NCBI GenBank assembly: GCA_029781865.1
Contig: JAKOVW010000057.1
Span: forward strand, 62,001-126,000
Source of the DNA: Bacteroidota bacterium
GTDB taxonomy: Bacteria > Bacteroidota > Bacteroidia > Chitinophagales > Saprospiraceae
Length of the DNA stretch: 64,000 bases
Reading direction: 5' to 3'
The position numbers were made by a program, and so were the translations under genes. Of the stretch, positions 2,489-16,703 are shown piece by piece; position 1 is the first letter of the stretch; every line of letters starts with the position of its first letter. Below the pieces are notes generated by a model. It was not told the DNA's origin. It saw only the letters and a program-made list of their open reading frames with translations, and searched no databases.

Positions 2489-5116
2489 TCAATAAATCAC
2501 TCTGAAGCCCAGAAAAATTCCATTTCTGTTACCCTTAGCGCCCGGTGAATCTAAATAATTAATCCGCCGGATATAATTTATGGAAAACAGATGAAAAATA
2601 TTGTCAATTCCAATACCCAGCTCGAGGTAGGGTTTCTGATCTGCAACAGTAATATTTTGAGCTGCATTAAATTGGCGGTTAGGTTCCGACAATCCGCCCC
2701 AGAATGAGTTAAAATGTATGAGTTCCCTGAATTGAAATTTTTGCAATAAAGGAATGCGGTCAAATAATAAGCCTCCAAAGTTTATTCTGGAATGAAGTTC
2801 TCCATAACGATCGGACGCAAATTCATAAGGCGTCATCAGATTAAATGCCCGGTTTGACATTTTCCAGGAATCACTACCCTGAGGTTGATGTAAAATTAAT
2901 GAAGGTATGGTGCCAAATATTTTACCGAACTCCAACCCCCAAATATATTCGATCTTGGGTGTTAAATGTGAGGTATGGTTGATATTTAAACTCCATTTTT
3001 GGTAGGTAAACTCGTAATCATTGAATTTAACACCATGCGTGTAAGACAAAATAAAAACAGGATACTTTGTAAACAATGGCAGTCTCGTATAATTTGAAAT
3101 TTTTGCCGATTCATGCCAGGCAAATCGCAGACCAACGGTAAATTCCGTAAGTGGAACAATGTGCTTATTTACCGGCTCATCAGGAGTCAGGTCATTGCTT
3201 TTGAACAATGGGTTAGGATAAAGAAACTGAATTGAAGGGTCGGTAGTTTCATAATCGAGAGTTTGGTAATTCATTCCGAAATGCAATAAAAAATTGGCTC
3301 CAATCTGTTGATCATGTGTAACTAAAAATTGCTTGTTATAAACTTTGGAATACAGCACTCCTCTTTTCCTTAAAATTGAATTGACAAAATTATCTTTATC
3401 AGATTGATCATACCACTCTATCACCACATCATAGTCTGATGTGTAAGCGATCTGACTTCTGGAATATGGCTGGGTCTGCCAGATTTGGCGAACTCCGATA
3501 TTCGATTTAAATTTTTGATCTTTTAATCCATAAGCTAAATGCCCATAGATCCCTGTTTTGGAAAATATCCCTTCCATTGTCCTCACACTTAGCCGGAAAC
3601 GAAAACCCTCAATCCTGTTGTAACTAACTAAGGATCCAAGCGGACCAATATAAATCTTATCGCCAATATAATAAACGCCCGAAACTGCCGTAGAAAGCAA
3701 CTTTTCCTTTGCGATTGCTTTAATATCTGTCTTCAAATGATCAGCCATCTGATAAATAGAAGATTCCCTACCCGTCAGCGTATCAGGCCGAATAGAACTC
3801 CAGTAATTATCATCATGTCCCGTATCCATTAGCCTTCTATTGGTGATCAGTGCACCGGCTTTTGCAAATTCGGCTTCTTCAGGACTGTTCAGGACAACAG
3901 CACTATTCTTTACTTTCATAGTACAGATCAACACTTTGTCACCGAATGAAATCGGCAATGGAATTCCCAGGCTTTCCAGATTAGCAAGATATTGCAATGA
4001 CAATATACTTTCACTGAGCGCATATCGATGTGTACCGGTAGAAACATCCAAAGCTGGGCTATATTTTTGTTGAATCCGAATAGCTTCAACAAAATTGATA
4101 TTAGCACTTTTGCTAAGGCGAAGATCAGCAGATACCAAGGCAAAAGAACTATCATTTACTGTAAAATATCCGGAAAAAACATTATCTCTCCAATCTTTTG
4201 GAATGGCTTGAAAAGTGATATTGTAATGGCCTTTCGGCAGGGCAACACTGTCGAGAATATAAAAATTATAGTAACTGAATGCATCCCGTCCCACCGGACT
4301 AACAAAGGTTTTATTAAAAAGCAAAACCCAATCCGAATACAAATTGATATCTCCGGCATTCCATTTTACTAATGGCTCCAATAATTTATCTGTTTCAAAT
4401 CCAGTGGTTTTTACAGCAATCTGTTGTTCTGATTCTGAAAAAGGTTCTTTCGTGATTTCATAATCAGAAATTTTTTCCGCAAAAAATAAAGGGGTATGTT
4501 TCTTTAAAGTATCATAGTCCTTTCTGACTGAAGCAAAAACTCTGGACTTGTCTCCAAAAATAATTCCTCCGGAAATTTTGTCGTCACTTGCCTTAGGATC
4601 ATATACATCCACTTCTTTAATTTCCCATCGCCTGGCATGGAAACGATTTAAATTCGCCAGATTGTTGAGTACATTTTGCTTAATAACTTTTTGCATCAAT
4701 GTTCTGCCGGGATTGGGATCTGCAGTAACTACAACTTCACCCAGATGATACGTTTCCTCCTTTAATTGAATATTAAAAGTCTGAACCGTCTTGTTGCTCA
4801 GTGGAATGGTCTGTGTCGCATAACCGACATAACTGATACGAAGGGAATCACCTGGCTTGAGATGTACTTTGAATTCAAATTTTCCGGAAAGATTAGTCTC
4901 TGCCCCAACGGAACGATTTTTAATCGATACGGAGACAAATGACAGCAATTCGCCCGTTTGATAATCCGTAACAACACCTTTAATTGTTGAACTGGTTTGA
5001 GAATATATCTGATTACCGTCCAAAAAGAATAGAGAAGCCAATAGTATACTCAGACTGAAACAGGCTGAAACCATCCTTTTCGCAATTAACTCAATAAATT
5101 TCGTTCTAATCCCCAT
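2489..5116 (-). CDS. DUF5686 outer-membrane protein with carboxypeptidase-like regulatory domain
   Basis: An 875-residue exported protein. Residues 1-40 hold a basic and hydrophobic signal segment ending near IYSQ. Residues about 43-128 form a CarboxypepD_reg-like beta-sandwich (IKGVVTDYQTGELLSFVSVSI, then DSLRISYVGYATQTI), as in SusC/TonB-type proteins, ending in GEVVVTADPNP. The long remainder matches the DUF5686 layout, rich in aromatic residues and alternating strands, and ends in a barrel-like terminal strand (NGIFLGFRVIY). No TonB plug is evident, so it is not called a TonB receptor. The likely location is the outer membrane. Function of DUF5686 proteins is unknown. It is a single gene, transcribed towards hsp20. 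Confidence 0.8.
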   Translation of the reverse strand: MGIRTKFIELIAKRMVSACFSLSILLASLFFLDGNQIYSQTSSTIKGVVTDYQTGELLSFVSVSIKNRSVGAETNLSGKFEFKVHLKPGDSLRISYVGYATQTIPLSNKTVQTFNIQLKEETYHLGEVVVTADPNPGRTLMQKVIKQNVLNNLANLNRFHARRWEIKEVDVYDPKASDDKISGGIIFGDKSRVFASVRKDYDTLKKHTPLFFAEKISDYEITKEPFSESEQQIAVKTTGFETDKLLEPLVKWNAGDINLYSDWVLLFNKTFVSPVGRDAFSYYNFYILDSVALPKGHYNITFQAIPKDWRDNVFSGYFTVNDSSFALVSADLRLSKSANINFVEAIRIQQKYSPALDVSTGTHRYALSESILSLQYLANLESLGIPLPISFGDKVLICTMKVKNSAVVLNSPEEAEFAKAGALITNRRLMDTGHDDNYWSSIRPDTLTGRESSIYQMADHLKTDIKAIAKEKLLSTAVSGVYYIGDKIYIGPLGSLVSYNRIEGFRFRLSVRTMEGIFSKTGIYGHLAYGLKDQKFKSNIGVRQIWQTQPYSRSQIAYTSDYDVVIEWYDQSDKDNFVNSILRKRGVLYSKVYNKQFLVTHDQQIGANFLLHFGMNYQTLDYETTDPSIQFLYPNPLFKSNDLTPDEPVNKHIVPLTEFTVGLRFAWHESAKISNYTRLPLFTKYPVFILSYTHGVKFNDYEFTYQKWSLNINHTSHLTPKIEYIWGLEFGKIFGTIPSLILHQPQGSDSWKMSNRAFNLMTPYEFASDRYGELHSRINFGGLLFDRIPLLQKFQFRELIHFNSFWGGLSEPNRQFNAAQNITVADQKPYLELGIGIDNIFHLFSINYIRRINYLDSPGAKGNRNGIFLGFRVIY

Positions 5117-5411
5117 AGAAAGACAGCCAAATTACCCGCAAAACAATGGAACTTAATCTATATTCTGAATTATTTTTTAGAATTTTAATTTAATGAACAG
5201 CCCTATCCGCAAACTCACTTAAAACCGAAATCGAACCCGGGAATTGTCAAAATCGGGAAATAAATATATTGTAATATTATTATATGTATATTATGCTGTA
5301 TTTCTGTATTTTAACCGCAAATAAACCATGATCATTATCTTATTGTTTCTTGACTGTGATCACTTTTAATGAAAATCTTATCCGTGATTTTTGCTTTTAT
5401 TCAAGTAAATC
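5117..5411. other. AT-rich divergent intergenic region
   Basis: This 295-bp stretch separates the divergent DUF5686 gene and the 5412 gene. It is very AT-rich, with TA-repeats around 5265-5300, and presumably holds both promoters. I see no reading frame of note, no tRNA and no clear hairpin. Confidence 0.6.
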
Positions 5412-6977
5412 ATGATTAGTAAAAAATTTATATATCTAATCTTTTTTTCATTCTTTATCTGCGGTGCCCATTTTCTTGTAGCTCAAAGCTTACAAAGCAC
5501 ACTGTCTATGTTATTCTATGAAGACAGTACAGATATTAATACGATTGCCTTATATCCAAAGAGCATTAGAGATGATCTGTTCAAAGTTTCAACGCATTCT
5601 GAAGGAATTGTAAAGCTTAATGTTATTCAAAAAAAATCAAAGGAGGCCTTTCGCAAGAAATTAGAAAACCTACCCAAGGAAGTTCAGAAAAAAGTATGGA
5701 ACATTAGCAGATTCGAGAATCTAATTTCACAACTAATGGAAATGGATGACAATAACAATCTTGAAACAGTACTGTCAAAATACCCAAAAGCAATACATGA
5801 TGATGCGGTGTCTGTATTTGTCAATAATCGGGATATTCTACCCTATCTCGATCATATTTATCAGGATTTCGAAACTTCATTTTCAATTATTATTTCAGTA
5901 TACAATTCAGAAGATCAATTGGCCTTCCGCCACTTAATGAAAACACCTGAATTAGTAGACCTTTTACTTGACAATCTCAACCTGGCAGTTAGTCTCGGAG
6001 ATATTTATAAAACAGATTCAACATTGTTGCACCATCAATTTGATTCGTTACAGACATTGCTTGCGCAACATCAGCTGAAAGAAAAAGAAGAATGGAAAGA
6101 AGAAATGACAAATAATCCTGAAGCACAAAAGGAGTTCATTGAAAGCACACAGGAATTTGATAAAGAATTATCGTATACAAATGAAGAATTGAAGGAGACA
6201 GATCAGGCGTCTTCTCCATCTTTTGACGACCTCCCCTATTCCTATTGGAGTGGACACCCCTGGTGGCTTGAGCCTGATTACTGGTATCCATATCCATACT
6301 GGTATCATTACGGCTTTTATTACCGGCAACATCGTATTATTTGGATTGGCATTCCATCCTGGCATTTTATCCGATGGCATTTTCACCATCATTTCAATTA
6401 CAACTTTTATCCACATTTTACGAATCTCCTCATTGAACACTATTATTTTGGTCCACTAAGACCAGCCTCCCGACACAAAGTTCCAATTGGAAACTGGATA
6501 GAGCAAAACAGGGAATTGCTGCCTGACAAATTCAATTCAAACCGGGAACTTAGAATAAATAGCATCCGTGAATTAGGTAAAGCAGAAATAGATCGCGAAA
6601 GGTATAACCGGGAGAATCCGGGAAACCCAGTCTCCAGTTTCGATTTTGTCCGTCAACATCATGCCAATTATCCGGATTTGAAACACGAAAAAGACCAGAA
6701 CCCGGTTTTAAAGAATACCCGCAATCCGGAAACGGGCCAACCCAGTGGCAGGATCAACAAAACTCCGAAAAAAAACAAGTTACCAATACAGGGCAACCAT
6801 CCACAGAGGAGAACATCAGAGGATAAACAAAAATTCATACCCAAAACGAATAAACCTGCACCGGGCTACCACAAAAAGGATGGCCAGAGTATCCGAACTG
6901 AAAGTAGGAAGCCATCAGCGAACCAGTCAACGCCTAAACCATCCAATCCTAAATCCCCTGATTCAAAGAAAGAGTAA
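5412..6977 (+). CDS. Secreted protein with distant DUF3300-like N-terminal half and aromatic/His-rich segment
   Basis: A 521-residue protein with an N-terminal signal peptide (about residues 1-25, ending VAQS). Residues 30-230 are mostly helical and contain two copies of a (Y)PKxIxDD motif, IALYPKSIRDDLF and LSKYPKAIHDDAV, about 75 residues apart. The first copy and the following KKVWNISRFENLISQL resemble the layout of DUF3300 proteins, but this is only a distant likeness by eye. Residues about 276-345 are extraordinarily rich in Trp, Tyr, His and Phe (YWYPYPYWYHYGFYY). The last 150 residues are basic, Pro/Asn/Lys-rich and probably disordered. It heads a likely unit with the tiny ORF at 7044 and hpf. 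No enzymatic motif is seen. Confidence 0.65.
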   Translation: MISKKFIYLIFFSFFICGAHFLVAQSLQSTLSMLFYEDSTDINTIALYPKSIRDDLFKVSTHSEGIVKLNVIQKKSKEAFRKKLENLPKEVQKKVWNISRFENLISQLMEMDDNNNLETVLSKYPKAIHDDAVSVFVNNRDILPYLDHIYQDFETSFSIIISVYNSEDQLAFRHLMKTPELVDLLLDNLNLAVSLGDIYKTDSTLLHHQFDSLQTLLAQHQLKEKEEWKEEMTNNPEAQKEFIESTQEFDKELSYTNEELKETDQASSPSFDDLPYSYWSGHPWWLEPDYWYPYPYWYHYGFYYRQHRIIWIGIPSWHFIRWHFHHHFNYNFYPHFTNLLIEHYYFGPLRPASRHKVPIGNWIEQNRELLPDKFNSNRELRINSIRELGKAEIDRERYNRENPGNPVSSFDFVRQHHANYPDLKHEKDQNPVLKNTRNPETGQPSGRINKTPKKNKLPIQGNHPQRRTSEDKQKFIPKTNKPAPGYHKKDGQSIRTESRKPSANQSTPKPSNPKSPDSKKE

Positions 6978-7043
6978 AACCTTACGATCAAAATGAAAAA
7001 TGAATTCATAATTATTTATACATTGCATTAAATTGTAAAGACT

Positions 7044-7217
7044 ATGAAAAAGAAACTGAACCCATTCAAAAGTCTTGAACAAAAGGTTTTTGAAGCACAA
7101 AATTTCAGGGATGAAGAAACCATATACGATGATAATCCATATGGTGACATTCCTCAAACAGATAATGAATATGAACAAAAATCACTTAACAAACCTATAA
7201 TCAAAAATGAAGAATAA
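7044..7217 (+). CDS. Small acidic protein overlapping the hpf start
   Basis: A 57-codon ORF from an ATG at 7044 to a TAA at 7215-7217. The product begins with a basic, hydrophobic-poor stretch (MKKKLNPFKSLEQKVF) and becomes acidic and Tyr/Asn-rich (DDNPYGDIPQTDNEYEQ). It lies between two co-directed genes and its last 11 bases overlap the hpf start codon at 7207, an arrangement that suits translational coupling. No signal peptide, membrane segment or known domain is visible. It could be a real small partner of the next gene or a leader ORF; function unknown. Confidence 0.5.
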   Translation: MKKKLNPFKSLEQKVFEAQNFRDEETIYDDNPYGDIPQTDNEYEQKSLNKPIIKNEE

Positions 7218-7548
7218 TATGCATTCTTTTGATATCAACAAAATTCAGCTAAAAATTCAATCCCCTCATGTACGTGTGAATGATGAATTTAACGACTACA
7301 TGATTGAACAAATTGAAAAGCTTGGAAAGATCTATAGCCGCATTGAACGGTGTGAAATCATGTTACACACCAGAAAAAATGATCAGAAGGAGTTTTGTGA
7401 GGTAGAAATCAAAATTTTTGTACCGGGCAAAATTTTGTTTGCCAAGGAACAGAAATCTAATTTCAGGCTTTCTGCTCAATCCGTTTTCGAAGATTTACAT
7501 AATCAGATAACGAAATTCAAAGGTCAATTAAACGAACAGAGCTCTTAA
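7207..7548 (+). CDS. hpf: Ribosome hibernation promoting factor (short HPF/YfiA family)
   Basis: A 113-residue protein with the beta-alpha-beta-beta-beta-alpha fold expected for HPF/YfiA: a first strand KIQLKIQSPHVRVNDEFNDYM, a helix with KLGKIYSRIERCEIML, a central strand KEFCEVEIKIFVPG and a final helix SVFEDLHNQITKFKGQL. The length matches the short form, which lacks the C-terminal dimerising domain of long HPF. Such proteins bind the 30S decoding centre and put ribosomes in a dormant state. A second Met at codon 5 (7219) would avoid the overlap with the tiny ORF before it. It converges with polX, 32 bp apart. Confidence 0.88.
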   Translation: MKNNMHSFDINKIQLKIQSPHVRVNDEFNDYMIEQIEKLGKIYSRIERCEIMLHTRKNDQKEFCEVEIKIFVPGKILFAKEQKSNFRLSAQSVFEDLHNQITKFKGQLNEQSS

Positions 7549-7580
7549 CAAGGACAAACAGATTACATATTCTGTTCCCA

Positions 7581-9344
7581 TTATTTTAGATTCCCTGCAA
7601 TCTGATGCCTTTTGCGTTTTGATTGAACAAATTGTTCGATGGTTTTCCAGCTTTGTGTATTTAGTATATCCTTAACTGTGCACCAGGCACGACGCGCAAT
7701 AAAGATTCCCGATTTCATAAATTCAAACTGCTTTTCCGAATGGCTATCTGTACTGATCACAAGCTTAACCCCTGCATTCCTTGCAAGACTACATAGTTCA
7801 TCATTTAAATCCATACGCTCAGGCTGCGCATTAATTTCCAAGGCCGTTCCGGTTGCTTTTGCAACTTTAAATACTCGTACCCAATCCACCGAATACCCTT
7901 CTCGTTTACCAATCAATCTGCCAGTCGGATGCCCTATACAATTTACATAGGGATGCATACATGCTTTAATAATCCGCTCTGTATTATCCTTTCTAAACCC
8001 GGAATGTATAGACGCGCAGACCCAATCTAATTTCTCCAATATGTGATCATTTAAATCAAGGCTTCCATCTTCAAGAATATCCACTTCCACACCGGTTTTA
8101 ATATAATCATTACCTGCTTTTTTATTAACCCTTTTAATCCGGTTAATTTGCTGTTGAAGTTCCCTTTCATTCATACCACCTGCTATTCGCACTGATTTAG
8201 AATGATCTGTCATTACGATGTAATCATATGTATAGTACTTCTGAACGTAATCAGCCATTTTTTCTAATGACGACAAACCATCACTCCCATCAGAATGAAG
8301 GTGCATATCTCCTTTCACATCATCAATAGTGACCAATTTTGAAATCATCTTTTGTTTCGTTAATTCAAACTCATCTTTCCCTTCTCTGAGTTCAGGTGGT
8401 ATATATTTCAGGCCCATGAGACGATAAATTTCTTCCTCTGTTTTGCCGGCCAGTAATCTGCCATCCCGAATTCTGAACACACCATACTCATTCATCTTAT
8501 AGCCATTTTTTTTGGCCTTTGTCCGAAGAAATACATTATGTTCCTTCGAACCCGTTAGATATAGTAATGAGGCTCCCCACTGCTCATCATCGACTATTCT
8601 TAAGTCAACTTGCCTGTTAAACTCATGAATCAAAATACTTACTTTGGTAGGTCCTTTTGCCAACACACTTTTCACGCCTTGTATTCCGATGAATTCCTTT
8701 ATAATTTTACTTCTGTCTTTTGGGCTGCTTGAAACAAGAATGTCGATATCACCAATCGTTTCCTTTTTTCTTCTTATGCTTCCGGCTACTTCAATCTGAT
8801 GTACCTCTTTTATTTTACTTAACTGTTGCAGAATTCGGTCGCTGATTGAAAGTGCATGAGTTAATAATATTCGTTTTTCAGCTTGATTGATTAACTTAAG
8901 ACTCCGTCTCATGTTTTCCACTTTTCTTTCTCCAAAACCGACTAACCCCTGGACACGACCTTCGTTAATTGCATTCAACAATTGTTGTTTCGTATTGATA
9001 TGCAACTTTTCGTGGAGGCGTTTTACCGATTTAGGACCAAAGCCTGAAATATCCATCAATTCCAATATTTCATGTGGAACTTTTCTTTTCAGTACTTCAT
9101 ACTTTTTGATTTTACCCGTTTTAATATACTCGTTGATTTTTTGAGCTATACTCTTCCCAATTCCGGGTATGTCATCCAGCAAATTCTTTTTATGAATTTC
9201 TAAAATATCTACATTTAAGCCATTCAACACTCTCGATGCCTTACTATATGCTAATGCACGAAAACGTTGATCATCGCCTAAATAACGATACATTGAAGCC
9301 ATATTCCTAAAAATTCCGGAAAGGATTTGATTCGTCCCTGACAT
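7581..9344 (-). CDS. polX: DNA polymerase/3'-5' exonuclease PolX
   Basis: A 587-residue family X DNA polymerase, the usual length for bacterial PolX. Residues 1-85 are the 8-kDa-type domain with a helix-hairpin-helix (DDIPGIGKSIAQKINEYI); a second HhH follows (ISGFGPKSVKRLHEKL). The palm holds the metal-binding pair in TIGDIDILV near residue 198 and a further carboxylate in RQVDLRIVD. The C-terminal PHP domain starts with the metal-binding HLHSDGSDG near residues 346-354 and includes VMTDHSKS, GVEVDIL and STDSHS. Family members fill gaps in base-excision repair and the PHP domain acts as a 3'-5' exonuclease or on AP sites. Single gene, no partner. Confidence 0.95.
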   Translation of the reverse strand: MSGTNQILSGIFRNMASMYRYLGDDQRFRALAYSKASRVLNGLNVDILEIHKKNLLDDIPGIGKSIAQKINEYIKTGKIKKYEVLKRKVPHEILELMDISGFGPKSVKRLHEKLHINTKQQLLNAINEGRVQGLVGFGERKVENMRRSLKLINQAEKRILLTHALSISDRILQQLSKIKEVHQIEVAGSIRRKKETIGDIDILVSSSPKDRSKIIKEFIGIQGVKSVLAKGPTKVSILIHEFNRQVDLRIVDDEQWGASLLYLTGSKEHNVFLRTKAKKNGYKMNEYGVFRIRDGRLLAGKTEEEIYRLMGLKYIPPELREGKDEFELTKQKMISKLVTIDDVKGDMHLHSDGSDGLSSLEKMADYVQKYYTYDYIVMTDHSKSVRIAGGMNERELQQQINRIKRVNKKAGNDYIKTGVEVDILEDGSLDLNDHILEKLDWVCASIHSGFRKDNTERIIKACMHPYVNCIGHPTGRLIGKREGYSVDWVRVFKVAKATGTALEINAQPERMDLNDELCSLARNAGVKLVISTDSHSEKQFEFMKSGIFIARRAWCTVKDILNTQSWKTIEQFVQSKRKRHQIAGNLK

Positions 9345-9602
9345 GTTTTTAAACTGCTATTGGAAACATCAATTAAGGTACATCCCCTTAGGATTGCCTA
9401 TGCCCGGACCCGACGATAAAATAATCAGATTTTTAGATATCCGACACTCAATAAGCCATTTGGCATTGACAAAATAGCTAATAATGATTTCTAATTCAAA
9501 TCAATTATCCACATTTACCACGCAGCAAATTAATCGCTGCCTGGTTAACTAATATTACACCGCTAATAACTATTCACATTTAAATACCAAAGCAATAAAG
9601 GC

Positions 9603-10043
9603 CTACACTATCTGTTTTAGGGAGAAGAACTCTTTAATTAATTTAACCTTTTGAGGATCCGTTAAATAATCGGTCTTTTCCATATGAATTTTCTTACCAA
9701 CCAATAGCTTTTCCCTGGAAATATAATTGGCAAATTCATTTGCTGCCGTAGTTGGACCAAATAGGAATATTTCATCATAAGGCTCTAATTGTTTGGCCAA
9801 ATATTCAAAATATTCCCTGGATGCATTTTCCTCCTTTCTGTGCTTATGCGCTTCATTATTGGTCGAACGATAATGCCCAATTTTAGTTCCATCAGAAGAT
9901 TCTCCGGGAAAGTGTTTCATATCTGCAGATGCAGAATGAATGGTCCGCATTGAATTTAATTCTTTTTCCGGCTCCATAAACTTTGCTTCTGCATGATCCA
10001 TCCAAACCCCGATTTTTTTGATTTCTACATTATGCTTATTCAT
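9603..10043 (-). CDS. Small eRF1-domain-3-like protein (possible stress protein)
   Basis: A 146-residue cytoplasmic protein. The N-terminus IGVWMDHAEAKFM matches the xVWxDHxxA opening of a widespread family of small proteins sometimes annotated as translational machinery or host attachment proteins, and the C-terminal half matches their end: EIFLFGPTTAANEFANYI then EKTDYLTDPQKVKLIKEFF. The fold is expected to resemble domain 3 of eRF1/Pelota. The middle (residues 30-70, HSASADMKHFPGESS, then HKHRKEEN) is charged and Ser/His-rich. Biological role is not established. It stands alone, upstream of polX on the same strand but with a 258-bp gap, so it is probably separately expressed. Confidence 0.55.
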   Translation of the reverse strand: MNKHNVEIKKIGVWMDHAEAKFMEPEKELNSMRTIHSASADMKHFPGESSDGTKIGHYRSTNNEAHKHRKEENASREYFEYLAKQLEPYDEIFLFGPTTAANEFANYISREKLLVGKKIHMEKTDYLTDPQKVKLIKEFFSLKQIV

Positions 10044-10094
10044 AATAATTGAATTTTACTAATCATAATTAAACTACATATTTCGTAATTTACT

Positions 10095-10114
10095 GATGTC
10101 CTTCAAATGACATC
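10095..10114. promoter_or_regulatory. Short palindrome upstream of the eRF1-like gene
   Basis: GATGTC and GACATC form an inverted repeat separated by eight bases, 52-71 bp before the start of the minus-strand gene at 10043. It could be an operator half-site pair; a six-base arm can also arise by chance. Confidence 0.2.
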
Positions 10115-10300
10115 CATCATAATGCAATAGAATAGTAATCATTTCACCTTAATTTGGAATCTGAGGCATTGCGAATCCGCATCAACTCATTGTAATATTC
10201 AGTTCAAACCGGCACAAATTTAAAATGATACAACTCTTTTCTGGCGAATAGAATTCAGGCATTTAATCTATTTTTATGGAGCGTTTTGCTTTAACCCGTC

Positions 10301-10846
10301 ATGGAAAATCCAAAGATAAAAATCACAATGGCAAAGAATGCGAATGTCAGCATTTGGCTCGATTCTTTTAATGACATCTACTCAGATTTTGATTCCAGGT
10401 CTTTGAATGACCGAACCCTCTCTGATGATTTTATTCATGAAATTCGTAAAATGGCCATTGAAAAGCCTGATGGCAAAATAGATCTTCAATTATTGATTCC
10501 CGCCGGTCTGAGAAATAGTGAAAACGAATCTATAATTATCAAAAGATTACACAATCAATTCAGGCAGACCTCAACGTTAATAACGCAAGAAAAGCGCAAA
10601 TTTAAAAAACGGGGCATTTTCATGGCATTGACTGGCTTTGTGTTAATGATTCTGGCAGCATATCTTTCCCTAATTGAAAATCATTCGTTTCTGATAAAAA
10701 TTTTTAGAGTTATATTGGAACCTGCCTGCTGGTTCCTGGTGTGGACCGGTTTAGATCAGTTATATAATACGGTTTATAAAAAAAATCCGGATCATGATTT
10801 TAATTTGAGAATGATTCATGCCAGAATCAGTTTTCAATCGTACTAA
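10301..10846 (+). CDS. Hypothetical membrane protein with two C-terminal membrane segments
   Basis: A 181-residue protein I cannot place by name. Residues 1-100 are soluble: a strand KITMAKNANVSIWLDSF, a short acidic turn with SDFDSRSLNDRTLSDDF, and a helix rich in Lys/Arg. Two membrane segments follow, about residues 105-123 and 131-151, and the last 30 residues are soluble. A second Met at codon 10 (10328) is an alternative start and sits closer to the conserved-looking region. The gene is isolated and convergent with the haloperoxidase-like gene that ends at 10912. The orderly domain layout argues that it is real. Confidence 0.6.
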   Translation: MENPKIKITMAKNANVSIWLDSFNDIYSDFDSRSLNDRTLSDDFIHEIRKMAIEKPDGKIDLQLLIPAGLRNSENESIIIKRLHNQFRQTSTLITQEKRKFKKRGIFMALTGFVLMILAAYLSLIENHSFLIKIFRVILEPACWFLVWTGLDQLYNTVYKKNPDHDFNLRMIHARISFQSY

Positions 10847-10911: not shown

Positions 10912-12294
10912 TTAATGAACGGAATATTCCGGTTTCATTAAATCGATTGACGATATTTTCTTGCCCACCTGGAATCCTATTTTTAATCCTTCCTCGCAAT
11001 CCATGCGATAATGGACGCCTAAAAAGATTCTGGAGAATGCATTTTCAAAGGCCATGTCATAAAACGAATGAAACATTCTTGGTTTACCCATAAATTCATC
11101 TCTCCCTTTATGACTATTATCCGTTATCTGATAATTGGGACCATAAAGCTGGGTCAATACTTCTGAAGCAGCAGATCCAAATACAGAATGTCCGGATGGA
11201 TATGATGGAAAAGGAGGTGTATGAAATAAAGGCTTCCAGTTTTTGTCAAATACTTTATGAATATAAGCCTCCGGTCTTTCCAGGTTATAATAATATTTTG
11301 AATGCCAACAAGCAACGCCTCCATCAGACAATGCCATGCCAACACGTAAAAAAGTTTCAAGGGTTTTATCTATTGGCGGACACTCTTTATGCACGACCTG
11401 ATTGGTAATGGAAATCCACCTTCCCGAAGGAGTAAATGTAATCCCAGGATGGTCATCGCTCCAGAATTCAGCTATCCATTTATTTTCAACAGACAACGGT
11501 GAACTAACTGTTAGTACTTCGAGTGCTTCTGTATAAAAAAGAGAAGAAGAAAGCTGAGAATACTCAGGAAGAGGTGATGCGAGAAAATCTGATGTATTGA
11601 TTACAAAAGGCCTAACATCTCCCCAATGGGGTAATAATGGAGGCATCGGTATTTCTTCTGAGACTTTCCACAATCCTTCTCCGGATTTTGGAACAAATCT
11701 CCTGTCATAAATATGTAAATAAGCTTGATGCCCCAATGAGTCCGTAGATGAATATTCATAAATGGCATTTGCTGTTTCAAATCCAAATTGTTTAGAATTC
11801 GCATAGGTACTGGAATCAGATCTTGTCTTTAGTTTTAATTCCCATTTGCTATATAATTGTTCTGCCAATTCCTGTTCATTGGTTCTGGCAGTCAAATAAA
11901 ACTTTTCAAACATTTTTTTATAGCAGGCATTTAATGCAGCCAGCACTTCAAAACGCTTCGATAAATCATAGGTAGGCAATTGCAGGTTTAATCGGGTTGT
12001 TGCAAAAGAGACATGAGTTGCATTCAGCAAAGGCATGGCTGTTTCGTATGCAGCCAAACCAATATGACCGTAAGTTCTTGCTGCAATCGGGCCTCTGTAT
12101 CCTTCCGCATGGCATTCCGTATTCAGAAATAGCTGATACCATTCCAAAATCAATTGATTGCTCAATTGGTTTTGTTCATTCATTCCTGAATATTTTGCCC
12201 GATATAAAAAAGCTCCAACAACTAAAACAAAAAATAAGAATACCCCATATTTAAGATAGGTATTATTAAATCTATTTTTAAGATAATTGATCAT
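10912..12294 (-). CDS. Vanadium-dependent haloperoxidase/PAP2 superfamily protein, membrane anchored
   Basis: A 460-residue protein with one N-terminal membrane anchor (about residues 15-32), so the catalytic part is probably periplasmic. All three parts of the PAP2/vanadium-haloperoxidase active site are present: K333-x6-R340-P, P366-S-G-H369, and S421-R-x5-H428-x3-D432. In this superfamily these residues hold phosphate or vanadate; the length and the all-helical appearance suit the vanadium-haloperoxidase branch better than small PAP2 phosphatases. Which activity it has (halide oxidation or phosphatase) cannot be decided from sequence. It is the last gene of an apparent operon behind the response regulator and histidine kinase (44-bp gap) and is clearly paralogous to the protein at 14664. 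Confidence 0.85.
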   Translation of the reverse strand: MINYLKNRFNNTYLKYGVFLFFVLVVGAFLYRAKYSGMNEQNQLSNQLILEWYQLFLNTECHAEGYRGPIAARTYGHIGLAAYETAMPLLNATHVSFATTRLNLQLPTYDLSKRFEVLAALNACYKKMFEKFYLTARTNEQELAEQLYSKWELKLKTRSDSSTYANSKQFGFETANAIYEYSSTDSLGHQAYLHIYDRRFVPKSGEGLWKVSEEIPMPPLLPHWGDVRPFVINTSDFLASPLPEYSQLSSSLFYTEALEVLTVSSPLSVENKWIAEFWSDDHPGITFTPSGRWISITNQVVHKECPPIDKTLETFLRVGMALSDGGVACWHSKYYYNLERPEAYIHKVFDKNWKPLFHTPPFPSYPSGHSVFGSAASEVLTQLYGPNYQITDNSHKGRDEFMGKPRMFHSFYDMAFENAFSRIFLGVHYRMDCEEGLKIGFQVGKKISSIDLMKPEYSVH

Positions 12295-12338
12295 TATGAC
12301 TATCTTAATAATTTTTGAGTAAGCTATGTGAATTTATT

Positions 12339-13775
12339 TTAATTATACTGTGCAATAACATCCTGTCTTTGATTCATTTTATCAGCAAACTCTTTTGGAG
12401 CCTGCATATCCTGACTATTTGAAAACACCAATCTGAAAATAGTTCCGCAGTTTTTTGGCCTGATAATTTCCAAATTAACCTTGTGGATTTTCAATATACT
12501 GGTCACCAGTGACAATCCAATGCCTGAACCTCGAACAGAAGACGTTTTAGCACTTCTGTAAAAAGGTTCAAAAATATAGGGCAGATCTTCCTCCCGGATA
12601 CCAGGGCCATTGTCTTCAATTTCCAGGACGATTCCTTTTTCAGAAGAATAGGTAAGCCTTAATTGAACCCTTAAGTCTGGACTGAATTTACAACCATTAT
12701 CCAACAAATTAATGATTGCGGTTTTTAACAAGGGTTCGTTTGCTTTAATCTTCAACTGATCTTCTGCTTCCGGCAGGTTCAGGATTTCAAAATTAATTTT
12801 ATATTCAGGATGTGATTTTAAGAGGTTTAGTTTCAATTGCCACAACAATTCATCAATCCTGATCCATTGAAAATCAACTATGGCATTATCGGCATTTATT
12901 CTCGCAAGTTGCATCAATTTATTTGACACCTCATTCAGATCTTTAACATCTTCAAGAATTGATGTCAGGGTTTCTTTATACTCACTGTTTTTCCGTTCTT
13001 TTTGAAGGGTAACTTCGATTTGAGAAATAATAACGCTTAATGGATTTTTTAATTCATGTGATATGTTGGACAGAAACATTTTTTGTGTGGCAAATGCCTT
13101 CTGAATCCGATCCAGTAATTTATTAAATGTGACCACTAGTCTGGATAATTCATCATTCTGATTGAATATTTTCAGCCGGTGACTCATATCGGTCGGCAAA
13201 AGTTCATCAACTTGATTCATAATATGATTTACCGGAGAAAGAGCCTGCCCTGCAAAAATCCAGCCCCCTATAGCAACCAAAGCAATAAATAAAAAGAATA
13301 CGATAAATAATATTTTATTCAGGTCACTCAGATGTTCCGATTTAAAAATGGCTTCTGCGACCACGACATAAGGCGTATTGGCTTTGTCATGGTACACCAT
13401 TCCCAGAGCGGTGTACTGATCTTTGGTGAACCGGGATTCACCGGTATGCCTGATTTCATTCAACAAGGATCCGTTGACTTCCTTCGGAGCAGGATTAAAA
13501 CTATAAATTCTTTGATTATTTTGATCATATATCGTAATGTTCTCTGAAAAAGAAGGCAAATTCGTGGATTGTGAAAACTCAGCGGTTTTATTGGGATACT
13601 TGATTTCCTGGCCGACGATCATGTCTGCCGTCATAATTGCCTTTGATTTCAAGCCACTGTAAAAATCATCACGTACCTGTTTTCCAAATTCAATATGAAT
13701 AAAAAACAATGCAAATACCATGATCACAGCGACGATCATGATGAACTGTATAGTTAATCGACTTCTAATTTGCAT
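12339..13775 (-). CDS. Sensor histidine kinase
   Basis: A 478-residue membrane kinase in standard order: membrane segment 1 (about residues 8-28), a periplasmic sensor of about 125 residues, membrane segment 2 (about 153-175), a HAMP linker (about 178-230), a HisKA domain with phospho-acceptor H240 in SNISHELKNPLS, and a HATPase domain with the N box near LLDNGCKFSP, G1 box DNGPGI, F box IFEPFYR and G2 box GSGIGLSL. The sensor domain shows no recognisable ligand-binding motif, so the signal is unknown. It follows the response regulator by 28 bp and precedes the haloperoxidase-like gene, so it probably belongs to one transcript with both. Confidence 0.95.
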   Translation of the reverse strand: MQIRSRLTIQFIMIVAVIMVFALFFIHIEFGKQVRDDFYSGLKSKAIMTADMIVGQEIKYPNKTAEFSQSTNLPSFSENITIYDQNNQRIYSFNPAPKEVNGSLLNEIRHTGESRFTKDQYTALGMVYHDKANTPYVVVAEAIFKSEHLSDLNKILFIVFFLFIALVAIGGWIFAGQALSPVNHIMNQVDELLPTDMSHRLKIFNQNDELSRLVVTFNKLLDRIQKAFATQKMFLSNISHELKNPLSVIISQIEVTLQKERKNSEYKETLTSILEDVKDLNEVSNKLMQLARINADNAIVDFQWIRIDELLWQLKLNLLKSHPEYKINFEILNLPEAEDQLKIKANEPLLKTAIINLLDNGCKFSPDLRVQLRLTYSSEKGIVLEIEDNGPGIREEDLPYIFEPFYRSAKTSSVRGSGIGLSLVTSILKIHKVNLEIIRPKNCGTIFRLVFSNSQDMQAPKEFADKMNQRQDVIAQYN

Positions 13776-13803
13776 TTAAATGAATTATATTAGAATTCAA
13801 GAA

Positions 13804-14481
13804 TTAATCTTCTTTAAATATATAACCGGAACCGAAAATAGTGTGAATTAACTTTTTCTCAAATGGCCTGTCGATCTTATTACGGAGATAATTGATATAC
13901 ACTTCAATCATATTCGTATTGGTATCAAAATTAATATCCCATACTTTTTCGGCGATCTCCCCTTTAGAAATCACCCTTCCCTGATGCCGTATAAAATACT
14001 CCAATAAGGTAAATTCCTTGGGAGTCAGATCTATTTTCTTACCTGCTCGAATAATTTCCTTTGCATCAATGTCCATTTTGACATCTGCATAGCTAAGCGT
14101 TTTATGTTGAATCGGATTGTCCTTTCCTCGCCGTGCCAGTGCCTTTAAACGGGCTAGCAGTTCTTTAAATTCAAATGGCTTAACCATATAATCATCTGCA
14201 CCCGATTCAAGGCCTTCCACAGTATTGTCGGTACCGCTTAACGCGGTGAGCAGAATAACAGGCGTTTTGACCCTATTGCTTCTAAGTAATTTTACCAGGT
14301 CAAAACCACTTAAATTTGGCATGATAATATCAGAAACAATGACATCATAGTGATTGGAATTGGCCATCTGAAAACCAAGTTGGCCATCAGAAGCAACATC
14401 TACTCTTATATTGTTTTCGAGAAACCCCTTTTTAAGTGTTTCAATAGCTTTCAACTCATCCTCAATGAGAAGGATTTTCAT
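13804..14481 (-). CDS. OmpR/PhoB-type response regulator
   Basis: With a start at 14481 the product is 225 residues and begins directly with MKILLIEDE, the usual opening of a receiver domain. A longer frame starts at 14556 but adds 25 residues absent from the family. The receiver holds the acidic pair E7/D8, the phospho-acceptor Asp51 in VIVSDIIMP, the conserved Thr/Ser in ILLTALSG and Lys in MVKPF. The C-terminal winged helix (about residues 128-225) includes LTPKEFTLLEYFIRHQGRVIS and NMIEVYINYLRNKID, typical of OmpR/PhoB DNA binders. It is first in the minus-strand unit and divergent from the lipoprotein at 14664, 182 bp away, so one operator could serve both. Confidence 0.95.
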   Translation of the reverse strand: MKILLIEDELKAIETLKKGFLENNIRVDVASDGQLGFQMANSNHYDVIVSDIIMPNLSGFDLVKLLRSNRVKTPVILLTALSGTDNTVEGLESGADDYMVKPFEFKELLARLKALARRGKDNPIQHKTLSYADVKMDIDAKEIIRAGKKIDLTPKEFTLLEYFIRHQGRVISKGEIAEKVWDINFDTNTNMIEVYINYLRNKIDRPFEKKLIHTIFGSGYIFKED

Positions 14482-14607
14482 AAATTCAATTGTTGAGACC
14501 TCACAAAGGTCATATCTCGTATCCTCCAATTCTAATAAGTCCTTGTATTTAAACAAATTCTAATGATATTCTAAACAATGCCTAATTCAATGTAAAAGTA
14601 AGCACTC

Positions 14608-14615
14608 TAATTTTG
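14608..14615 (+). promoter_or_regulatory. Candidate -7 promoter box for the haloperoxidase-like lipoprotein
   Basis: TAATTTTG matches the Bacteroidota TAnnTTTG box and lies 49 bp before the start codon at 14664. No matching -33 TTTG at the usual 19-base spacing was found. Confidence 0.4.
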
Positions 14616-14663
14616 CAGGGCAAACCTAATTTAAATAAAATTCGTTAATTTAACTCTAAGTCT

Positions 14664-16094
14664 ATGAAAATCAAATTTTTAATGCAGCTTTCTCTCGTGC
14701 TGTTTTCATTGGTTTTCTTTGTTACTTCATGTAACGAGGACACCAATCCTAATAACACCACCTCAGAGAAAGGCAATGTTGCTTCATTTAGCGCTGAAGC
14801 ATCTCTGGAATGGAATAAAATCTTTCTCGAAATAGAAAGATATGCCGCTGGTTACCGCCCTGGTCCTGCTCCACGTGCTTTGGCACTTCTTGGACTTGCA
14901 AGCTACGAAGCCTGTGTTACAGGAATGCCTGAATACCAATCTATTAAAACCCTTTATTCAGGTCTCGATATTCCTGCAGTACAATCCGGCAAAACCTACC
15001 ATTGGCCTACTGTTGTTCATTCTATCTATTCAACTATGATCCCAAAGTTCTTTGTGGACGCAAATGGCGTGGGAAACATCAATCCAACAGTAAAATTGAG
15101 AGTAGATGCTCTGATCAACAGACTGAATGATAAATATCTTACTGAAGTTGGTAAAGATCAATTTGAACTTTCCAAAGCTTACGGCCAGGCAGTAGCTCTT
15201 GCTGTTTGGAACTGGTCAACCACTGATAAAATCGGCGAACATTTAGAATATCCAACTTACCAGCACTATTTGGATCCTTTCCAGGGTTATGACTGGACAA
15301 AGCATACCGGGCCAGGTAAATGGGCTCCTATTTTCCCAGGACCAGGAAAGCCAATGGGTGCCATCTATGGAGGTGCACGTACTTTTGCCGTTACACAAAA
15401 ACTTTGCAACCCTCCTTCACTTTATGGAATGACCTATAGTGAGGATCCCAAATCAGAATATTATGCTCAGGCGTTGGAAGCATGGACAAAAAATGCATCA
15501 ACAGACTATTATACCAAATGGGTTGGAGAATTTTGGAGCGATGACCTCGTTAATCTGACATTCAGTCCAGGGCCACGTTGGATTGCAATTGCTAACCAAA
15601 TTATTGAAAATGAAAAATCAAATCTGGAAACAGCAATATTTGCATATGTAAAAACCGGAATGGCTATTTCTGATGCTGCTGTGGCTTGCTGGTATTCCAA
15701 ATACTATTACAATATTGAGCGTCCTGCCACTTATATTGTAAAATTTATTGATCCGAATTACAAATCCAATTTAAATAATCCGCTAACCGGAGATGTTGGG
15801 GTAGTACCTTCATTTCCTGCATACCCCTCTGGTCACTCCACTATGGGTGGCGCAGGTGCTGAAGCTTTAGCGAGTGTATTTGGCTACAGTTATGCAATGA
15901 CAGATAAATGTCATGATGGTAGAACTGAATTTGTCGGAACGCCAAGATCATTCCACAGTCTTTATGAAATGGCACAGGAGAATGCCTGGTCAAGAGTACT
16001 TTTGGGTACACACTGGCGTATGGACTGTGAAGAAGGTGTACGCTTTGGTACTGAAATCGGAAGAGCGGTAAATAGATTACCCTGGAAAAAGTAA
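14664..16094 (+). CDS. Vanadium-dependent haloperoxidase/PAP2 superfamily lipoprotein
   Basis: A 476-residue protein with a lipoprotein signal peptide whose lipobox Cys is C23 (FFVTSC), so it is probably membrane-tethered outside the cytoplasm. The complete PAP2/vanadium-haloperoxidase active site is present: K346-x6-R353-P, P388-S-G-H391, and S443-R-x5-H450-x3-D454. It shares long stretches with the protein at 10912, for example EFWSDD, SKYYYN.ERP and MDCEEG, so the two are paralogues. The family reacts with vanadate or phosphate; halide preference or phosphatase activity is not readable. It is divergent from the two-component regulator and ends at a terminator, so it is monocistronic. Confidence 0.88.
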   Translation: MKIKFLMQLSLVLFSLVFFVTSCNEDTNPNNTTSEKGNVASFSAEASLEWNKIFLEIERYAAGYRPGPAPRALALLGLASYEACVTGMPEYQSIKTLYSGLDIPAVQSGKTYHWPTVVHSIYSTMIPKFFVDANGVGNINPTVKLRVDALINRLNDKYLTEVGKDQFELSKAYGQAVALAVWNWSTTDKIGEHLEYPTYQHYLDPFQGYDWTKHTGPGKWAPIFPGPGKPMGAIYGGARTFAVTQKLCNPPSLYGMTYSEDPKSEYYAQALEAWTKNASTDYYTKWVGEFWSDDLVNLTFSPGPRWIAIANQIIENEKSNLETAIFAYVKTGMAISDAAVACWYSKYYYNIERPATYIVKFIDPNYKSNLNNPLTGDVGVVPSFPAYPSGHSTMGGAGAEALASVFGYSYAMTDKCHDGRTEFVGTPRSFHSLYEMAQENAWSRVLLGTHWRMDCEEGVRFGTEIGRAVNRLPWKK

Positions 16095-16238: not shown

Positions 16239-16703
16239 ATGCATAGATCCATATTCAAATCCGCACTCTTCTTAACATTTTTTATTATTTCATTTTCCTG
16301 TAAAGAAGAAAAGACAGAACAAATTTATAAATATCCGGGAGGTGAAATTTTACGTAAAATTCCCCTGGTGAATGGCAAAAAAAACGGGGAAATGAAGGAG
16401 TATTTTGCTTCAGGAGAATTAAAACAAACCAGCCAGTTTGTAGACGACAAACAGACCGGTAAAACGGTATATTATTTCAAAAGTGGCAAAGTGAAAGAAG
16501 TGCAGTATTTTGACAATTTCAAACAACAAAACGGAGACACCACATTTTACGAAAACGGTAAAATCGAATTTATTGTTGAATTTACAAACGGTTTAAAAAA
16601 CGGCTACGTGAAAAAATTTGACACCACTGGTGTTATGTACTTCAATGCCAGGTACAAAATGGATACACTGGTTGAAGTAAAAGGCGTTGTTTTGCAACGA
16701 TGA
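16239..16703 (+). CDS. YwqK/MORN-repeat-type lipoprotein
   Basis: A 154-residue lipoprotein: signal peptide with lipobox Cys C21 (ISFSC). After that come about five short repeats of roughly 22-25 residues with the pattern Y/F-x-x-G-x-x-x-x-x-x-x-x-x-G-K-x-x-G, such as GKKNGEMKEYFASGELK, DKQTGKTVYYFKSGKVK and GLKNGYVKKFDTTG. Such repeats form antiparallel beta-hairpins as in the YwqK family, often labelled antitoxin although most members have no shown toxin partner. No toxin gene lies beside it. Its probable location is the inner face of the outer membrane or the surface. Function unknown. Confidence 0.75.
   Translation: MHRSIFKSALFLTFFIISFSCKEEKTEQIYKYPGGEILRKIPLVNGKKNGEMKEYFASGELKQTSQFVDDKQTGKTVYYFKSGKVKEVQYFDNFKQQNGDTTFYENGKIEFIVEFTNGLKNGYVKKFDTTGVMYFNARYKMDTLVEVKGVVLQR

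Follow-up and report, generated by a model that had tools for sequence, protein, structure and literature searches.

The window, the whole stretch of 64,000 nucleotides that was analysed, carries a response regulator gene (RR), a histidine kinase gene (HK) and a haloperoxidase-like gene (HPO1) in one direction, facing a second haloperoxidase-like gene (HPO2) on the opposite strand (Table 1). The original prediction was correct to the base for the coordinates of these four genes and for the gaps of 44 bp (HPO1-HK), 28 bp (HK-RR) and 182 bp (between RR and the divergent HPO2). The domains also agreed with its gene assignments: each paralogue has PAP2, HK has HAMP, HisKA and HATPase_c, and RR has Response_reg and Trans_reg_C. 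In the profile search all HK and RR domains scored above their gathering scores, as for an OmpR-type two-component system. The RR open reading frame is extensible upstream to a TTG at position 14556, while the start giving MKILLIEDE is at 14481. The two paralogues were expected to differ in being anchored by a helix and by a lipid, respectively, and residues 14-30 of HPO1 do form a hydrophobic stretch near the N-terminus (mean KD 2.29), while HPO2 carries a lipobox-like motif, VTSC, with residue 23 as its last. The HPO1 anchors vary across copies, being either a plain helix or a helix followed by a Cys. The genome of the window contains 13 HPO1-like matches, and paralogy alone therefore means little.

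Table 1. Genes and candidate regulatory elements of the locus (positions within the window).
Feature	Position	Strand	Description
HPO1	10912..12294	-	Kinase-associated vanadium-haloperoxidase-fold protein with N-terminal membrane helix; PAP2 1.1e-12
HK	12339..13775	-	HAMP-HisKA-HATPase_c sensor kinase with short periplasmic domain
RR	13804..14481	-	OmpR-type response regulator
Candidate RR box	14558..14574	+	Direct repeat TTCTAA-N5-TTCTAA, 11-bp period
Candidate HPO2 -7 element TAATTTTG	14608..14615	+	Bacteroidota-type TAnnTTTG
HPO2	14664..16094	+	Lipoprotein vanadium-haloperoxidase-fold protein, PAP2
MORN_2-repeat lipoprotein	16239..16703	+	PF07661; downstream of HPO2

The suggested relation to the Zobellia iodoperoxidase was borne out for both paralogues by sequence, as their best PDB match was 4cit (3.8e-49 for HPO1 and 6.6e-25 for HPO2), and for HPO1 also by fold. 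The AF2 model of HPO1 (pLDDT 93.9) aligned to 4cit with a VIA-align Z of 47.7 over 396 residues (28% identity) and to the Curvularia chloroperoxidase (1vnc) with a Z of 32.3 over 386 residues. The algal bromoperoxidases aligned over about 240 residues only (Z up to 14.4), and the listed phosphatases gave a Z of at most 12.9 over about 190 residues. The model indicates that HPO1 has the full haloperoxidase fold and not just the PAP2 core. HPO2 was placed in the family by sequence only.

We take the vanadate-binding set to be K, R, S, G, H, R, and H, the columns of which were also read in the Zobellia enzyme Zg-VIPO1. These seven positions are filled as anticipated in HPO1 and HPO2 of the window. 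Among the homologs the set was complete in all 24 HPO2 proteins encoded divergently from an RR and in 28 of the 33 rows of the HPO1 branch described below. The difference in deviation (5/33 vs 0/24) is not significant (Fisher p 0.067), and other haloperoxidases deviate at a similar rate (9/99; p 0.34).

The original prediction called for the neighbourhood to be looked for in relatives and would have fallen had it lacked conservation there; the order was found to recur, and the prediction is not refuted on this count. By tblastn, RR, HK and HPO1 facing HPO2 were present in the same order in all 27 loci picked as complete, a set that includes the window itself and some near relatives, L143 and L222 among them. 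The loci come from genomes of the window's family together with Saprospiraceae, Chitinophagales and unclassified Bacteroidota MAGs, and counts from this survey of named genomes are to be read as "at least" values and not as frequencies. Mislabels by the ORF caller (HPO1 in L143, HPO2 in L153, and RR in L135, L136, and L140) were put right by tblastn. Outside the family, nine loci with a related kinase (L233-L241, at most 308 bits), drawn from 40 genomes in the order survey, had no haloperoxidase in the fetched stretch, with the contig ending just past the kinase in L235 and L239. In the phylum survey of 395 genomes, no haloperoxidase was seen near five of the ten passing places outside the family (L264-L268, best 354 bits). 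Bit scores alone do not separate the kinase groups, since a true HK orthologue in the window's own genus (G001) reached 288 bits only; the kinase tree does separate them. That these genes owe their neighbourhood to chance in a genome rich in haloperoxidase paralogues, with 13 HPO1-like matches to draw from, is refuted by this conservation, by the HK-HPO1 fusion and by the conserved box described below. We found no description of the arrangement in the open-licence papers searched.

In the kinase tree, built without seven named or second copies, the HK orthologue branch comprised 47 rows. HPO1 adjoins or is fused to 36 of the 46 kinases of this branch with a judgeable downstream gene, L143 being counted as HPO1-bearing because its "none" label is an ORF-caller artefact. 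The remaining 10 kinases have no adjacent HPO1 and can thus do without it there. In four genomes (G006, G032, G175, and G424) HK and HPO1 form one open frame of 921-935 aa with HPO1 at the kinase C-terminus. Each fusion has HisKA, HATPase_c and PAP2 above cut-off, and the three that were aligned are colinear with the separate HK and HPO1 genes. The four fused kinases make up one side of a branch in the kinase tree (98). The three fused haloperoxidase domains then in hand share a branch of the haloperoxidase tree with the unfused L117, so that a single fusion event is indicated by the kinase tree alone. In a structure model of the fusion the domains fold, while the linker (pLDDT <50) and the domain arrangement (pTM 0.51) are of low confidence.

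All 31 HK-linked HPO1 proteins fell into one branch of 33 rows in the FastTree tree (100). In the mixture-model tree 32 rows of the HPO1 branch formed one side of a branch (SH-aLRT 98), L150 and L157 being assigned to the HPO1 group because the FastTree tree had placed them there. Both trees were made without seven named loci taken as copies, first-search loci and rows shorter than 330 aa, and the mixture-model tree also without eight rows that were long or odd and without alternate "other" haloperoxidases. Across the 27 loci the correlation of distances with those of HK was 0.904 for HPO1, 0.898 for RR and 0.553 for HPO2, with a bootstrap difference between HPO1 and HPO2 of 0.19 to 0.54. The membrane paralogue HPO1 goes with the kinase by tree, by co-divergence and by four fusions. 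Seven HPO1-specific columns were found, none of them interpretable.

A direct repeat with an 11-bp period, TTYTAA-N5-TTYTAA, was found on the HPO2 strand in 20 of the 23 other loci (1.5 expected), where the hexamer and the period were taken from the window and the sequences of the other loci had been viewed before testing. The same test at nine other periods gave 1-5 of 23 loci, and the period-11 repeat was found on the RR strand in 2 of 23. In 18 of the 23 loci the repeat was followed by TTTG 36-38 or 47-49 nt past its end (0.07 expected); five loci lack this full arrangement. We take the TTTG to belong to a -7 element, presumably of the Bacteroidota consensus TAnnTTTG. The repeat was also present in six of seven further loci outside this set, among which L222 is close to L143 and hardly independent and one locus may count twice in the distance tally.

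Genome-wide, the box of the window is the only mismatch-free site with such promoter geometry. Of 22 genomes with the system, 10 had the strict box with a -7 element (14 sites), against 2 of 21 others (3 sites), and the reversed pattern occurred in none of the 43 genomes; the strict box is absent from 12 of the 22. Among the 14 strict sites, nine lie ahead of HPO2 or of a lipoprotein-HPO2 pair, including two (G150 and G385) on a different contig from the system, and five lie ahead of other genes. A wider regulon was not seen by a loose search, as genome-wide matches with two mismatches were not clearly above the reversed control. The box appears to mark the lipoprotein paralogue HPO2 as the predicted target of RR. 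The idea that a single two-component system is at the centre of a regulated haloperoxidase locus is supported, both by the conserved neighbourhood and by the conserved, phased regulator-type box at HPO2.

HPO2 required 15 label changes in the FastTree haloperoxidase tree and 12 in the mixture-model tree, and the output slot has therefore been refilled. HPO2 looks like a swappable, regulated output. Among RR-divergent HPO2 genes, 10 of 23 have a homolog of the MORN lipoprotein directly 3', compared with 12 of 100 other haloperoxidase genes and 0 of 29 HPO1 genes. In the window this gene is probably a fifth member of the locus, in the same transcription unit as HPO2.

Altogether, we lean toward a dedicated Saprospiraceae-type Bacteroidota two-component system that has one vanadium-haloperoxidase paralogue in its input and another as its output, and hold this to be somewhat probable. 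Its computed basis is the gene order, the kinase-linked HPO1 branch, the fusion, the co-divergence, the phased box, and the fold and residues. In the likeliest version, HPO1 acts as a co-sensor of vanadate-enzyme type, with RR activating HPO2. A single helix would anchor HPO1 in the inner membrane, and its vanadate-binding domain would presumably lie on the periplasmic side, where it may contact the small periplasmic domain of the kinase. The occupancy or turnover of HPO1, by vanadate/phosphate, halide, peroxide or a hypohalous product, could set the activity of the kinase. Phosphorylated RR would bind the TTYTAA repeats that stand in tandem, with an 11-bp period, ahead of HPO2 and would activate transcription of this secreted lipoprotein, and in many genomes the MORN-repeat lipoprotein would be switched on together with it. 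It is possible, if on the whole doubtful, that HPO1, beside the kinase or fused C-terminally across a third membrane helix, is an enzyme-based receptor whose signal is its own chemistry with vanadate, halide and peroxide, so that the bacteria gauge when conditions permit halide oxidation and then produce a second haloperoxidase, a secreted one.

The two paralogues may instead both be effectors, HPO1 as an ordinary inner-membrane haloperoxidase autoregulated with a kinase that senses alone, HPO2 as its outer-membrane counterpart, and the fusion reflecting co-expression only. Since most HPO1 copies and, by motifs, all four fusions keep the full active site, HPO1 may act as an ordinary enzyme, which also fits the operon-like spacing of 44 bp and the kinases lacking an adjacent HPO1. 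However, trees and distances tie HPO1 to the kinase much more tightly than HPO2. Through the fusion, four genomes with kinases of a single branch carry the enzyme on the receptor itself; inspection of ten loci gave no box on the RR strand; and HPO1 of L118 has lost one Arg and one His of the metal site. We consider this reading unlikely. The symmetrical "oxidation or phosphatase pair" of the original prediction was not supported in that form, as tree, co-divergence and fusions bind HPO1 to the kinase while the box marks HPO2 as the predicted target; because the two differ in trees and distances, an equal effector pair was set aside as the leading reading and kept as a rival.

Rather improbable is that HK answers hypohalous acid or copper like E. 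coli HprSR or CusSR, with HPO1 and HPO2 as mere targets. The nearest named RR models were indeed for copper/silver (PRK09836, 238.7 bits), heavy metal (TIGR01387, 237.5) and HprR (PRK11517, 204.5), and the nearest HK model was cztS_silS_copS (TIGR01386, 178.9). HprSR is reported to respond to reactive chlorine and to have its box between its RR gene and the operon that it controls, whose regulated output is periplasmic and redox-related (PMC9302797). The scores are, however, below the curated NCBIfam cut-offs (420, 279.2, 353, and 292.55, respectively), for TIGR01387 only moderately so, and the direct-repeat box found here contrasts with the HprR/CusR box CATTACAAAATTGTAATG, a palindrome (PMC9302797). 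No Cys, Met or His was conserved at 80% or above in the periplasmic domain among 36 HKs, and HprS-like redox sensing via a Met or Cys of the sensor domain was rejected.

More improbable still, the paralogues could belong to the PAP2 superfamily as acid or lipid phosphatases of the periplasm, in a system that answers phosphate or another oxyanion. PAP2 is the sole Pfam match of both, and the deposited title of 3bb0 describes a haloperoxidase apo-enzyme that catalyses dephosphorylation. Against this, the HPO1 model matches full-length haloperoxidases (Z 47.7 and about 32) far above phosphatases, and RR scored below the PhoB cut-offs of NCBIfam (TIGR02154, 170.5 vs 296.2; NF053854, 158 vs 270). 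The whole haloperoxidase fold of the model makes a plain PAP2 phosphatase less likely.

For the many vanadium haloperoxidase paralogues of Bacteroidota, a dedicated regulator with a defined candidate box offers a handle on their role, since any stimulus that induces the HPO2 promoter is the cue to which a bacterial haloperoxidase responds physiologically. The promoter might also be made to report halide, peroxide or vanadate. Should HPO1 belong to the receptor, an oxidising metalloenzyme fold would have come to serve as a component of a sensor, which could be tested in one polypeptide with the fused proteins. An enzyme-based receptor would, if true, be a receptor class without description in the open-licence literature searched.

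Among known systems, the vanadium iodoperoxidase Zg-VIPO1 of Zobellia galactanivorans (4cit/4usz) is the closest solved structure to both paralogues by sequence and to HPO1 by fold, and all seven vanadate residues are in common. It differs from HPO1, which has a membrane helix and a tie to a kinase, and the residue before SGH is Pro in the window proteins and Thr in Zg-VIPO1. The vanadium chloroperoxidase of Curvularia inaequalis shares the fold of HPO1 over 386 residues and has the same metal-site motifs; it is a fungal enzyme, and we know of no link to signalling. YycH and YycI, the accessory proteins of WalK, are single-helix membrane proteins whose genes accompany that of the kinase and which are regarded as modulating it, and their fold is unrelated to that of HPO1. 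Compared to these, the partner found here is of an enzyme fold and sometimes fused to the kinase C-terminus, the fusion and co-divergence suggesting contact. HprSR and CusSR resemble the present system in having an OmpR-type RR and a HAMP-HisKA kinase, as indicated by the kinship of the models, and a box between the RR gene and the output (PMC9302797). The system described here differs by a direct-repeat box in place of a palindrome and by the presence of an enzyme-fold partner of the kinase.

The locus consists of a response regulator (RR), a histidine kinase (HK) and a membrane-anchored haloperoxidase paralogue (HPO1) in one direction, facing a lipoprotein paralogue (HPO2). The coordinates of all four genes and the 44-, 28- and 182-bp gaps agreed exactly with the original prediction. 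Pfam identified PAP2 in HPO1 and HPO2, HAMP-HisKA-HATPase_c in HK, and Response_reg-Trans_reg_C in RR. The paralogues carry the different anchors claimed for them, HPO1 having a hydrophobic N-terminal helix and HPO2 a lipobox-like stretch. The closest solved sequence to both was the vanadium iodoperoxidase of Zobellia galactanivorans (4cit; E 3.8e-49 for HPO1, 6.6e-25 for HPO2). The fold comparison covers HPO1 alone. Its structure model (mean pLDDT 93.9, pTM 0.90) matched 4cit with Z 47.7 across 396 residues and Curvularia chloroperoxidase with Z about 32, compared to Z up to 14.4 for algal bromoperoxidases (about 240 residues aligned) and up to 12.9 for the phosphatases in the match list (about 190 residues). 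Since 4cit and the Curvularia enzyme score so far above the phosphatases, HPO1 comprises the entire haloperoxidase fold. This whole-chain fold of the model makes a minimal PAP2 phosphatase unlikely.

Features of the locus and of related loci
Feature	Location	Coordinates	Strand	Remark
HPO1	window	10912-12294	-	
HK	window	12339-13775	-	
RR	window	13804-14481	-	
TTCTAA-N5-TTCTAA	window	14558-14574		inside 182-bp gap
TAnnTTTG (-7 element)	window	14608		inside 182-bp gap
HPO2	window	14664-16094	+	
MORN_2-repeat lipoprotein	window	16239-16703	+	next gene after HPO2; domain by Pfam, lipoprotein by eye
Lipoprotein-like protein	L116 (G116)	4923-5408	-	161 aa
Lipoprotein-like protein	L231 (G388)	9504-9992	+	162 aa
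Three haloperoxidase genes in tandem	L064 (G000:C37)	5937-10333		window's genome
Second tandem HPO2	L182	1610-3091	-	one metal-site His to Cys
HK-HPO1 fusion	L045 (G032)			927 aa
HK-HPO1 fusion	L049 (G006)			921 aa; window's genus
HK-HPO1 fusion	L119 (G175)			930 aa; contig identical to that of named locus L152
HK-HPO1 fusion	L225 (G424)			935 aa

At least one match to HPO1 was found in 48 of 60 genomes searched, own genome counted. As the window's genome is rich in haloperoxidase paralogues (12 PAP2 matches, 13 matches to HPO1), the pair alone is unremarkable. A kinase probe matched at 319 bits or more in 16 of 199 family genomes, own included; HPO1 was directly downstream of or fused to the kinase in nine of the 15 others and not in six. 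HPO2 faces RR-HK-HPO1 as in the window in G004, G010 (two HPO2 in tandem), G001, G032 and G008 (HPO2 cut by the contig end), while G006 has the kinase-HPO1 fusion on one contig and an RR-HPO2 pair on another. An HPO1-alignment search matched at least 80 named loci. Among those listed, 24 had a kinase above 200 bits, and their titles were Saprospiraceae (14), Chitinophagales (two), Lewinellaceae (one), Phaeodactylibacter (one), and Bacteroidetes or Bacteroidota with nothing narrower (six). HPO1 adjoined or was fused to the kinase in 22 of these 24, the exceptions being L185 (contig end) and L199 (no HPO1 found). Recurrence of the four-gene order in relatives, raised with the original prediction, was confirmed by tblastn in 27 of 27 loci, all preselected as complete. 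Nine sampled loci from the order outside the family and five from elsewhere in the phylum showed no such arrangement; in two of the nine the contig ends just past the kinase. The HPO2-like genes of L177 and L196 come from contigs whose titles name MAGs of Alphaproteobacteria and Thermoanaerobaculia, which may reflect mis-binning or transfer.

HK and HPO1 are encoded as a single protein in four genomes. In each fusion a single open frame contains HisKA, HATPase_c and PAP2 domains scoring above cut-off, and metal-site motifs are present in all four. In an alignment of three, some 30 residues join the kinase to the hydrophobic segment of HPO1. The four fused kinases formed one side of a branch in the kinase tree (98). 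In the haloperoxidase tree, which holds three fused domains (L225 is not in it), these grouped with the unfused L117 in a branch of four rows; a single fusion event is therefore not shown by this tree alone.

Every HPO1-linked kinase of the set fell within a 47-row branch (100) of the kinase tree. HPO1 was adjacent or fused in 36 of the 46 branch kinases with a judgeable downstream gene (L143 counted as adjacent) and not in ten. All 31 HK-linked HPO1 of the 157-row haloperoxidase tree lay inside one 33-row branch (100), the other two rows being L150, with a kinase fragment upstream, and L157, with no kinase nearby. Under a mixture model (103 rows) the 32 HPO1-branch rows used formed one side of a branch (SH-aLRT 98). 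HPO2 copies required 15 label changes in the former tree and 12 in the latter; the output position has therefore been filled from different haloperoxidase lineages. Across 27 loci the distance correlation with the kinase was 0.904 for HPO1 and 0.898 for RR compared to 0.553 for HPO2 (bootstrap interval of the HPO1-HPO2 difference 0.19 to 0.54), and mean identity was lower in HPO1 (0.433) than in HPO2 (0.546). By fusion, trees and co-divergence HPO1 is the kinase-associated paralogue.

Upstream of HPO2 lies a direct repeat of TTCTAA-like hexamers with an 11-bp period, followed by a -7 element. OmpR-type regulators commonly use direct repeats with a period close to one helical turn. Allowing at most two mismatches in all over two hexamers, the repeat was present on the HPO2 strand in 20 of the 23 loci besides the window (1.50 expected from dinucleotide shuffles), whereas the controls gave 1-5 loci at periods 7-10 and 12-16 and two on the RR strand. 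TTTG followed the repeat end by 37 nt in 11 of 24 loci and by 48 nt, one unit more, in 7 of 24, with double counting possible. Repeat and TTTG at 36-38 or 47-49 nt were combined in 18 of 23 loci against 0.07 expected; L045, L046, L050, L182 and L185 lacked this arrangement. It recurred in six of seven further loci (absent in L230). At 99 other haloperoxidase genes the repeat was found in 12 and the full arrangement in six, including those of the second HPO2 copy in the G010 and L199 tandems.

A strict pattern was present in 10 of the 22 genomes that have the system, at 14 sites in all (G388, counted here, has a kinase without adjacent HPO1), versus 2 of 21 others (three sites, one inside an ORF; G020, among the 21, has a kinase without HPO1), and its reversal in none of the 43. 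Of the 14 sites, five precede other genes and nine precede HPO2, either directly or with a small lipoprotein gene in between. Among these nine are sites in G150 and G385 at an HPO2 on a contig separate from the system. The mismatch-free combination of box and -7 element is unique to the HPO2 upstream region in the window's genome; with two mismatches there were two further sites compared to one in the reversed control, and across 21 genomes this looser pattern was not clearly above its control. HPO2 is most likely the target of the system, and RR would bind the candidate box.

L116 and L231 encode a lipoprotein-like protein between a perfect box and HPO2, that of L116 without Pfam match. Identical box and -7 geometry was seen at L249 (G116:C23) and L259 (G388:C100) ahead of an RR gene from a paralogous two-component system and ahead of a SulP-like transporter gene (labelled by eye), and a paralogous regulator may therefore read a similar box. 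Other haloperoxidase paralogues (L055, L056, L065, L071) lie near a short protein resembling Rrf2-type regulators by eye.

A MORN homologue directly follows 10 of 23 RR-divergent HPO2 genes and 12 of 100 other haloperoxidase genes, among them L188 (the G150 copy of HPO2 located away from the system), but none of 29 HPO1 genes. Such homologues occurred in 18 of 32 loci examined, window among them, and the window's genome had a single further match, a weak one. The MORN lipoprotein probably belongs to the module.

The active-site residues had been claimed intact in the paralogues, and all seven vanadate residues were complete in 24 of 24 RR-divergent HPO2 and 28 of 33 HPO1-branch proteins, as in 90 of 99 other proteins. 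Among the five HPO1 exceptions is L118, in which Ser replaces an Arg and Gln a His. HPO1 and HPO2 did not differ significantly (p 0.067), so catalytic loss in HPO1 is at most occasional. Halide specificity is unreadable from the active site's first shell, which is conserved family-wide (PMC11871015). Two genes of the L064 tandem lack several vanadate residues, and several are likewise gone in L067, L068, L073 and L075.

The original interpretation held in kind, as a regulated haloperoxidase locus with conserved order and a box at HPO2, but not in its symmetry, HPO1 being tied to the kinase and HPO2 the probable target. Most likely, HPO1 would partner the kinase in the membrane and contribute its vanadate site to sensing, and RR would activate HPO2 and its MORN lipoprotein. 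In the fusions the HPO1 domain comes after the third hydrophobic segment, behind the cytoplasmic kinase; we infer the topology and a contact between HK and HPO1. Across 36 sequences, no Cys, Met or His in the periplasmic domain of the kinase reached 80% conservation.

The nearest NCBIfam models to HK and RR were of copper, silver, heavy-metal and HprR types, all missing their cut-offs (nearest TIGR01387, 237.5 of 279.2). The open-licence literature searched gave no description of a haloperoxidase coupled to a histidine kinase, whether by linkage or by fusion. The locus is a conserved signalling module, a variant of the two-component system for which no description was found in that literature. 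HprSR of E. coli responds to reactive chlorine and has a layout similar to that of the window's system, its box likewise being located between RR gene and target operon (PMC9302797).
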